Shown: positions 27,284 to 29,214 of the stretch, piece after piece | How the letters are laid out: every line of letters starts with the position of its first letter | Position numbering within the stretch: the first letter of the stretch is position 1 | NCBI GenBank assembly: GCA_918026815.1 | Contig: CAKJVC010000143.1 | Coordinates: 248,001-312,000 of the forward strand | Origin: Chalara sp. BL73 | Lineage: Eukaryota > Ascomycota > Leotiomycetes > Helotiales | Direction of reading: 5' to 3' | Length of the DNA stretch: 64,000 nucleotides | Made by a program: the position numbers and the translations under genes | The notes under the pieces: model-generated | Told to the model about the DNA's origin: nothing | The model's input: only the letters and a program-made list of their open reading frames with translations | The model's database searches: none

Positions 27284-28374
27284 CTCGATCATCATTGCCA
27301 GGGATGAAACTATGTATATTGTCTCTAAGATAGGCCCAAAGTACATTTGATTAACTTCAGAGGCTTCGTCGGTAATTCTGCAGCATCGTCTATCACAATG
27401 TGTCACGCTCTGCAGGGAGCATCACTCTTGCCTTTCCATAACTAGCTAGCGATCTCTCTCTCTATATATATATCCATTCCACTGTTCGTAACTAGCAATT
27501 TTATGCCTTTCCCACTGAGTTCCAAGTCGGTTCCTCCTCTATGGTAGTACGTCTACAAGGTCCTAGGATCAAGGGAAGCCAGCCTCTAAGAAACCGAACC
27601 ATCTCACAATTATCAAGGACCCTCATTTTTTCGCACCCGCTATAATTCCAACCACCAATACCACTATCAAACCCACCCTCGCGTTATCAAGCACTAACCA
27701 CTCCGCTCCATGAGGCATGGACGAGACCGCGCCAACTCCGGAACATCTAAAAAGAGATACGAGCGTAGGGGGAATGTTGGTAACAGCCGAGGGATATCAG
27801 CAGCATCCTGGGAGAATCTCACGGGAGACCAACACCGGAGAACCCTCAAACATGCAGATAACAAATCGAGAGGGCCTCCATATGCGCGCTGATATCAGCC
27901 TGCACACAATAAGGGCAATACCGTAATTCGCCCATGCCAATCACATTCGAGATTTAACCTATACAACATAAGCTATACAAACGAGTCGGAAGTACCATCT
28001 TCTTCATCCTGTTAGGAATCGGTATACATAAGTAGGCCAAGGAGCTAGAGAACCTCACACAAACACATTACAGCCGTAATTGTAGGAAATTGAAGAACTG
28101 CAACGCTCCGTATTTGGCCCGTATTCTATTGCTGTGATATCTTCGCAGATCCTCCAATTGATTCTATTGCGGAGAGATCCACTTTCTGGCACATCCACAG
28201 AGGCAAGCACGTCACGATACTCGCATACTCTCCCCACACAGCCAAGCCACATCTCCATAAATTGCTCGCTTCCCGTATCCCTGCCAGGGGTTAAAAAAAA
28301 TCTGCCGCCAATTTTTTTTATTCGCTTTATGTAAAATTATAAGCATCAGCTTTTTCATCAACAGCAATCTCTCT
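27284..28374. other. intergenic, 1.1 kb, upstream of tRNA-Lys
   Basis: No gene supported. It contains a (CT)n-(TA)n microsatellite near 27455-27475 and a short ATG frame at 27717-27926 of unknown meaning. A 48-bp segment at 27961-28009 resembles 21411-21458. T-rich runs lie just before the tRNA gene. Confidence 0.5.
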
Positions 28375-28497
28375 GCCCGGCTAGCTCAATCGGTAGAGCG
28401 TGAGACTCTTAATCTCAAGGTTGCGGGTTCGGTGAGTAATACTTGGATTTCTCCCACGAGCTGCAAGCTAATAATTAACAGACCCCCGCGTTGGGCT
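28375..28497 (+). tRNA. tK(CUU): tRNA-Lys(CUU) split in the T-loop by a 50-nt insert
   Basis: Bases 28375-28431 plus 28482-28497 make a complete 73-nt cloverleaf. Acceptor stem GCCCGGC/GTTGGGC (two G-U pairs); D-stem GCTC/GAGC; anticodon stem TGAGA/TCTCA with loop CTCTTAA, anticodon CUU; variable loop AGGTT; T-stem GCGGG/CCCGC; T-loop TTCGACC; discriminator U, as I recall for yeast tRNA-Lys(CUU). The insert (28432-28481) lies between G57 and A58, inside the B box. No intron is present at the canonical 37/38 site. A short T5 run follows about 36 nt after the 3' end and could terminate Pol III. Without removal of the insert the T-arm cannot fold normally. The joined sequence is so regular that the insert is either spliced out or recent. 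Confidence 0.88.
28432..28481 (+). other. spliceosomal-type intron-like insert inside tRNA-Lys
   Basis: Fifty nucleotides starting GTGAGT and ending AACAG, with a CTAAT motif at 28468-28472 whose second A is 10 nt before the terminal G. Length, donor, branch-like motif and acceptor match mRNA introns of neighbouring genes. Removing it restores an exact 7-nt T-loop. Confidence 0.75.
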
Positions 28498-29214
28498 CAA
28501 TTCCCTCCGCAGTGAGCAGTTGCTCTCTTCCTTCTTTTTGGTTTTGGGCTCTTTGTTGTTCACCTTGAGTTATGGAGAAGTAAGGGGGCATGCATGCTAA
28601 TTTGAGGGAGACCCGATACTTGAAAGAGATTGCGTTAACTAAAGTTGGTGTTTTCCTACTTTTTGCGCTTCCCGAGACTTGTAGGATCCGCCTGAGTAAG
28701 CATGTACCCATGAAGGAGAACCAAGGAAGTTGATTGTTTGTTATATATAAGATTTATACTAGTATGCAAACGCGTCAAAAAGATGAAGAAGGGGTATACT
28801 TCATTGACTACAGGGGAGAAGTGATAAGTAATGGGAGTGCTCTTTTGTATAGATAGATTGTCGAATACATCGTGGACTTCCTCCTTATCTGGGAGTTTGT
28901 CAGTCGTTTCAGCGACAGAAGACAGTATCCTTGAGTGGATTCCCGTCCATGAGTTTGAGTTGTTTCTGAGACGTTTAATTCATACTTTTAAGAAGCTAGA
29001 TGTTCATGTCAATTCGTGCATCCAAAGTCAAATGACTAGTATACATGCCAATCACAAAAACGCTTGTGAATGTCAGCTCTCTTTCCAAACATTCACTACC
29101 CCGTCGGTTCCAATCCTTGCTATCAAAACCGAAGAGTCCTCCTAGTGGATGTAGTTCTCGAGGACGTTTCCTTTTGATATTTGAAAGCCTCTCATTATCA
29201 ATTCTACATGCCTG
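28498..29214. other. intergenic between tRNA-Lys and methyltransferase
   Basis: Contains a possible Pol III terminator (CTTCTTTTTGG near 28534). Open frames here, such as 28831-29145, match nothing known and may be leader sequence or noise. Confidence 0.45.

Follow-up and report, generated by a model that had tools for sequence, protein, structure and literature searches.

The window analysed here is a stretch of 64,000 nt from the genome of Chalara sp. BL73 (C122:248001-312000). At positions 28375-28497 of its forward strand lies a tRNA-Lys(CUU) gene interrupted by 50 nt that resemble a spliceosomal intron. The 5' exon (28375..28431, nt 1-57 of the tRNA) was delimited from a partial Rfam match, comparison with paralogues and pairing by hand, and the 3' exon (28482..28497, nt 58-73) ends in a discriminator T at 28497. 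Between them, at tRNA positions 57/58, sits the putative intron (28432..28481), recognized from an insert-free paralogue and from its signals. It begins with a 5' splice site, GTGAGT (28432..28437), the same in four tRNA-Lys(CUU) inserts (three loci and one allele), and ends with a 3' splice site, CAG (28479..28481), which is TAG in the copies on contigs C62, C57 and C169. A short hairpin, AGCT-GCA-AGCT (28459..28469), reads AGCC-GCA-GGCT in the C169 copy, a single compensated pair, and a candidate branch site, CTAAT (28468..28472), assigned from the sequence and from comparison of copies, places its branch A 10 nt from the insert end. The 5' leader, AGCAATCTCTCT (28363..28374), has 11 of 12 nt in common with the paralogues on C62 and C141; further upstream is TTATAAG (28337..28343), a possible TATA-like element of the kind that occurs in fungal Pol III genes. 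A 3' trailer of 32 nt (28498..28529), which the paralogues on C62 and C141 have without a change, precedes TTTTT (28535..28539), a Pol III-type terminator by its sequence. All these features are on the forward strand. The insertion site can slide by one G, reading either TTCG/GTGAGT..CAG/ACC or TTC/GGTGAG..CA/GACC. Upstream of the tRNA gene, at 1.1 kb, lies a protein gene whose best named relative, with 69% identity, is in the helotialean fungus Tricladium varicosporioides (the closest match being at 71%), which makes a Leotiomycetes ascomycete the most likely source of the DNA, and a scan for viral contigs gave no match.

With the T arm interrupted by the insert, ARAGORN called no tRNA on the window and Rfam gave only a partial match to this gene (31.5 bits). 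The initial annotation had read 28375-28497 as a tRNA-Lys(CUU) gene with a 50-nt insert at 28432-28481, with arms that pair once the insert is taken out, a GTGAGT start, a CTAAT 10 nt from a terminal CAG and a site in the T loop at 57/58. The sequence is as it described; all four stems of the joined tRNA are paired, with zero non-standard pairs. Of the 127,880 positions on both strands of the window, 12 show the full signature, defined as a GT[AGT][AGT][AG] start, a terminal AG with the A of a CTAAY 10-14 nt before it, and a length of 48-55 nt. Given this frequency and the presence of such inserts in 15 tRNA loci (below), the finding exceeds what chance would give.

Other copies of the gene, which the initial annotation had proposed to compare, were sought throughout the genome (58,659,784 bases, 199 contigs) with a 32-nt piece of the 5' half, allowing up to three mismatches. 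Five places were found, all with 0 mismatches. The insert is present in the window copy and in those on C62, C57 and C169, and absent from that on C141 (115914-115996). C57 matches C62 at 99.5% over 5.8 kb and is, from this similarity, probably its allele; on that count the insert interrupts three loci out of four. The C141 gene has the same exons as the window gene and thereby fixes the ends of the insert; its existence also means that the window gene need not be essential. Compared with C62, the C57 copy has one C fewer in the T arm (four rather than five) and a trailer 7 nt shorter, differences that may reflect decay of this copy, polymorphism or an error of assembly. The C169 gene, on the minus strand, has a 9-nt insert at 37/38 in addition to the T-loop intron; pairing between this short insert and some of the anticodon loop is possible. 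The exons of the C169 gene have a single substitution, located in the variable region.

The tRNA-Lys(CUU) copies differ in their inserts rather than in their exons. Between the window gene and C62, 11 of 50 insert sites differ as against 0 of 73 exon sites (Fisher p 2.4e-5; 1.3e-8 for exons evolving at the rate of the insert). Nine of the 11 differences fall in the 27 middle nucleotides and two in the 23 nt of the 5' splice site and of the branch and 3' region, and GTGAGT, CTAAT and the terminal AG are preserved in every copy of the insert. Among C122, C62 and C141 the 32-nt trailer is identical and the leader differs at 1 of 12 positions, while the flanking DNA can hardly be aligned. A SINE was considered as the source of this common leader and trailer and set aside, only five copies having been found. 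A special role of the long conserved trailer was likewise discarded, the tRNA-Ala(AGC) and tRNA-Trp genes having trailers of similar length. In those genes (L044-L047, L064, L065) 24-41 nt precede the T5 run, some with a possible hairpin; the trailers of most other tRNA genes compared are unlike these. In the C122 and C169 inserts a segment around CTGCAA or CCGCAG is able to pair with the 5' strand of the T stem, which is not seen in the C62 fold, and the T to C exon change of C169 preserves this pairing, a possible precursor fold.

The phenomenon extends well beyond tRNA-Lys(CUU). In the genome as a whole, 20 GT-AG inserts were found in 15 tRNA loci representing 10 isoacceptors, mostly in the D arm and also in the anticodon loop, the variable region and the T arm. 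An artefact of one locus was rejected on the strength of these 15 loci, and the pairs C62/C57 and C51/C187 hold the same inserts; the alleles C57 and C187 were left out of the counts, as was a partial candidate for tRNA-Thr(UGU), L181. The latter (C14:804330-804450) has a tRNA-like 5' half, possibly of tRNA-Thr(UGU), followed in the anticodon stem by GTATGT...CTCTAACACTTATCCAG. Three of the loci came from separate searches: tRNA-Lys(UUU) on C121, split after nt 9, from among 35 nuclear tRNA control loci; tRNA-Pro(UGG) on C139, split after nt 45, from a search with 16 joined tRNA families; and the initiator tRNA on C86, split after nt 15, from a search with 11 yeast tRNAs. Nine more came from a T-arm pattern representing one class of T stem only, which gave 74 matches as against 19 with the reversed control. 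Seventeen matches on contigs taken as mitochondrial and six in genes already known were set aside (23 of the 74); the remaining 51 records comprised 27 ordinary tRNAs, 10 insert-bearing records at nine loci and 14 chance or degenerate matches. For the 27 ordinary records ARAGORN reported either no intron or one near the anticodon, and no GT-AG insert of this type was seen in them. The nine loci encode tRNA-Gln(UUG) (two), tRNA-Ala(CGC) (two), tRNA-Arg(UCU), tRNA-Pro(AGG), tRNA-Pro(CGG) (two) and tRNA-His(GUG). A census of the genome with the tRNA model RF00005 scored 63 of 2,453 candidates and is incomplete. On C115 (98,774 bases) high-scoring tRNA matches recur at an offset of about 43.7 kb; this contig is probably a mitochondrial genome assembled about twice. 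The genome also contains degenerate tRNA-like loci (L151, L167) and tRNA genes with long anticodon introns (L141, L156).

Several genes are interrupted more than once. The 72-nt tRNA-Pro(AGG) is split by three GT-AG inserts and a canonical intron, and both tRNA-Pro(CGG) genes and tRNA-His carry two GT-AG inserts each and a canonical intron. A canonical intron at 37/38 is retained in seven of the 15 insert-bearing genes. None of the 20 inserts lies at 37/38, the closest being at 33/34 in the tRNA-Pro(CGG) gene on C75.

All 20 inserts begin with GT and end with AG, a figure that is not fully independent as, where an insert-free copy is lacking, most ends were chosen to give both a cloverleaf and GT-AG. 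The ends are fixed independently, to within a slide of one base, by an uninterrupted copy for tRNA-Lys(CUU), tRNA-Lys(UUU), tRNA-Pro(UGG), the initiator tRNA and the D-loop insert of tRNA-His, and those of the tRNA-Gln(UUG) inserts by the two genes jointly, each being uninterrupted at the site of the other's insert. Nineteen inserts are 48-55 nt long and one is 175 nt; in 19 of 20 there is a CTAAY or TTAAY whose A lies 10-14 nt from the insert end, and position +5 is G in 18 of the 19 short ones. As a control, the signature was sought in 31 introns placed by ARAGORN near the anticodon, 13 of them of at least 24 nt, and was present in none.

The initial annotation had likened the insert to nearby mRNA introns, and the likeness holds on a small sample. 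Nine junctions in conserved protein genes yielded seven frame-keeping introns of 46-67 nt with GT..YAG ends, picked by reading frame and protein sense, and two cases without a credible intron. A CTRAY-like motif lies 9-21 nt from the end in six of the seven and at 30 nt in the other. The tRNA inserts look tighter (48-55 nt, with one of 175; branch at 10-14 nt) than these seven mRNA introns (46-67 nt; 9-30 nt), again on a small sample. Branch-site distances of 6-36 nt are given for fungi in the relevant passages of PMC5832005, and both the tRNA inserts and the mRNA introns of this genome fit the fungal consensus set out there.

Introns of this anatomy have precedents in small structured RNAs. 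In Schizosaccharomyces pombe the U6 snRNA, likewise a small structured Pol III RNA, contains an mRNA-type intron according to the account in PMC10484740. U6, however, belongs to the core of the spliceosome, where reverse splicing is easily pictured, whereas tRNAs are outside that core, and the tRNA case differs again in that many unrelated sites and ten isoacceptors have been hit. In the present genome, where 47 of 3,925 candidates were scored, the six U6 matches listed (C5, C164, C121, C185, C82 and C179) cover model positions 1-105 in 97-110 nt without a large insert. The fungal U3 snoRNA introns, as presented in the parts of PMC5832005 concerned with them, are similarly GT-AG introns with an RCTRAY branch site in a small structured RNA, and intron-bearing and intron-free paralogues occur in one genome, two Leotiomycetes included; they average 92 nt in the same account, longer than the 48-55 nt of 19 of the 20 tRNA inserts. 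That 2017 paper names U3 and U6, in the passage concerned, as the only small structured RNAs known to be often interrupted by introns. Elsewhere in the literature covered, tRNA introns are treated as archaeal-type, with no spliceosomal example, and none appears in the available portion of PMC4494063. The matches listed for the open-access literature included no account of spliceosomal introns in tRNA genes, subscription papers and preprints being outside the scope of that search.

The canonical introns of the same genes are of another kind. As summarized in sections of PMC3978253, nuclear tRNA introns lie exclusively at 37/38 and are cut by the tRNA endonuclease, the exceptions in position being Cyanidioschyzon and the Guillardia nucleomorph. 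The canonical introns here occupy that position, belong to that other enzyme and, unlike the inserts, show GT, AG and branch signals in none of the 31 examined. Could the endonuclease also remove the inserts, recognizing a bulge-helix-bulge at unusual sites as in Cyanidioschyzon? Such a motif consists of a 4-bp helix between two 3-nt bulges placed at the splice sites. Cyanidioschyzon and the Guillardia nucleomorph provide a model of introns at positions other than 37/38, of which one C. merolae gene can have several, and many of the nucleomorph introns have no defined motif in the account of PMC3978253, so far as its relevant sections go; parts of the C122 and C169 inserts, although not the C62 fold, do pair with the 5' T-stem strand. 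The ectopic introns of C. merolae use a bulge-helix-bulge (same source and limits), whereas none was seen in the six of the 15 genes tested here, a weak test in which only the central helix sets most of the inserts apart from the controls, and spliceosomal signals are present instead. In the arrangement that scores best, the central helix has one of four pairs in each of the three tRNA-Lys(CUU) genes and one, three and two in tRNA-Lys(UUU), tRNA-Pro(UGG) and the initiator tRNA, as against three and four of four in two canonical introns. The totals are no better than those of shuffled inserts (fractions 0.41-0.98), although the control totals of 8 and 7 of 10 overlap the 5-7 of the inserts. An endonuclease route would also leave the GT, AG and branch signals unexplained, and we regard it as highly improbable.

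A further possibility is that the inserts are a mobile introner or transposon that resembles an intron by chance. Introner bursts produce insertions of uniform length, several to a gene, and the present inserts recall them in both respects. The initial annotation had proposed that a dispersed repeat would favour a transposon; this was examined for the tRNA-Lys(CUU) insert and no dispersed repeat family emerged, the 3' half of the insert occurring in the genome only in tRNA-Lys(CUU) genes and in one match with three mismatches. When all 20 inserts were compared pairwise, those of different tRNA families were alike only in an 11-nt match at the branch site. We give a chance resemblance of this sort very little credence, and inserts born as introners could in any event still be spliced as introns.

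Which polymerase makes the transcripts is less plain. Each of the 15 genes is followed at 3-37 nt by a run of T5 or more, whereas 4.6% of 45-nt stretches taken at random from the window contain one. This points to Pol III, and the interrupted nuclear tRNA gene in the window is most likely a Pol III gene. In tRNA genes the A box comprises nt 8-19 and the B box nt 52-62. The inserts split the B box in the three tRNA-Lys(CUU) loci and the A box in seven others, so that 10 of the 15 genes lack intact boxes and normal transcription from the internal promoter is in doubt; an upstream TATA-like element could help. Two of the 19 short inserts contain T5 runs of their own, at which Pol III could terminate. 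Splicing is coupled to Pol II. The split boxes, the internal T5 runs and this coupling all favour spliceosomal introns in Pol II or mRNA-like precursors. Against such precursors are the T5 terminators of all 15 genes, the leader and trailer held in common with the insert-free C141 gene, and the example of S. pombe U6, a Pol III RNA that is spliced of its mRNA-type intron in the text available from PMC10484740. Pol II transcription seems rather unlikely; it differs from Pol III transcription of the same introns in one step, so the probabilities we attach to the readings overlap and sum to more than one.

The joined sequences resemble functional tRNAs. With the inserts removed ARAGORN recognized a tRNA in all 15 cases, although for five joined sequences with a canonical 37/38 intron it gave a wrong anticodon label; unspliced, and at its default setting without introns, it recognized none of the 15. 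Allowed introns of up to 150 nt, it called five of the 10 insert-bearing T-arm records and misplaced their introns. Thirteen mature sequences were paired by hand, and of 21 pairs each the number of non-standard ones is zero in six, one in six and two in tRNA-His. Where copies can be compared, many differences are compensated. The initiator tRNA on C86 differs from the insert-free copy on C11, the only one used among several insert-free copies, at eight sites that make up four compensated pairs, three of which span the insert. There are three compensated pairs and one one-sided change between the tRNA-Gln(UUG) copies, three and two respectively between those of tRNA-Ala(CGC), and six compensated pairs, two one-sided changes and one breaking change between those of tRNA-Pro(CGG). 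The tRNA-Pro(CGG) of C75 differs from tRNA-Pro(AGG) by two compensated pairs, one one-sided change and one breaking change, and tRNA-His on C13, whose acceptor stem includes an A-C mismatch, from that on C113 by one compensated pair and one breaking change. Patterns of compensated pairs are what would be expected if the joined tRNA were under selection.

For five isoacceptors, tRNA-Arg(UCU), tRNA-Gln(UUG), tRNA-Ala(CGC), tRNA-Pro(AGG) and tRNA-Pro(CGG), a genome search with pieces of the genes found no insert-free copy. A pattern for the D arm of tRNA-Arg matched only tRNA-Arg(CCU), two tRNA-Trp genes and six places with two mismatches (three in the reversed control), none of the six being an insert-free tRNA-Arg(UCU). 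To our knowledge no tRNA other than tRNA-Arg(UCU) and tRNA-Gln(UUG) reads AGA and CAA, respectively, under the standard decoding rules, and both codons are used in the four window ORFs that were counted. That these two tRNAs appear to be encoded only by interrupted genes is the strongest argument for removal of the introns, within limits that apply to every such claim of an only copy: the search was heuristic, and the assembly may be incomplete.

These results bear directly on whether the genes work at all, a choice that the initial annotation had left between a working intron and an intron-like insertion that has put the tRNA gene out of action. Were the inserts intron-like sequences in surplus tRNA genes, never spliced, the genes would be pseudogenes, and much could be fitted to this: insert-free copies exist for tRNA-Lys(CUU), tRNA-Lys(UUU), tRNA-Pro(UGG), the initiator tRNA and tRNA-His(GUG), the promoter boxes are split in 10 of the 15 genes, the C57 allele has two deletions, tRNA-His on C13 has its acceptor mismatch, and the genome does contain the degenerate tRNA-like loci mentioned above. 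Pseudogenes do not account for an insert that has diverged between identical exons in tRNA-Lys(CUU), for the compensated pairs of the initiator tRNA, tRNA-Gln(UUG), tRNA-Ala(CGC) and tRNA-Pro(CGG), or for five isoacceptors with no insert-free copy found, two of them needed for AGA and CAA. Disabled copies are in our judgement improbable, and 20 inserts in 15 tRNA loci favour a working intron. It is very probable, on the sequence evidence, that the inserts are spliceosomal introns and are removed in the cell, whichever polymerase transcribes the genes.

The ends of the insert, its splice signals, the intact mature cloverleaf, the conservation and the terminators can be read from the sequence; the polymerase, splicing by the spliceosome and the order of the steps we infer. 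The following pathway is proposed for the window gene. Transcription would run from the leader to the T5 run at 28535-28539. With the 50-nt intron in place the T arm could not close normally, and for that reason the precursor should lend itself poorly to end processing. The spliceosome would read GTGAGT, CTAAT and CAG and join G57 to A58, after which the spliced tRNA-Lys(CUU) would fold and mature. The same pathway would serve at least 15 tRNA loci, seven of which would also need the tRNA endonuclease for their 37/38 intron.

By their anatomy the tRNA introns described here appear to be spliceosomal introns in Pol III-type genes, a variant of what is known from U6 and U3, in genes of a class for which no precedent was found. 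On balance it seems probable that whole isoacceptors, tRNA-Arg(UCU) (AGA) and tRNA-Gln(UUG) (CAA) among them, are made only by way of the spliceosome, that translation in this organism relies on a second pathway of tRNA splicing in addition to the tRNA endonuclease, that some pre-tRNAs, such as tRNA-Pro(AGG) with three spliceosomal-type introns and one canonical intron, need both machines, and that Pol III genes have repeatedly acquired spliceosomal introns. The search for noncanonical introns in tRNAscan-SE 2.0 is described for its archaeal mode in the portion of PMC8450103 that deals with it, so such genes may have been missed or called pseudogenes in other fungi. If splicing is what the sequences suggest, pre-tRNAs are substrates of the spliceosome and the supply of tRNA is tied to pre-mRNA splicing; intron gain would then be open to study in a 72-nt gene in which every site is understood.
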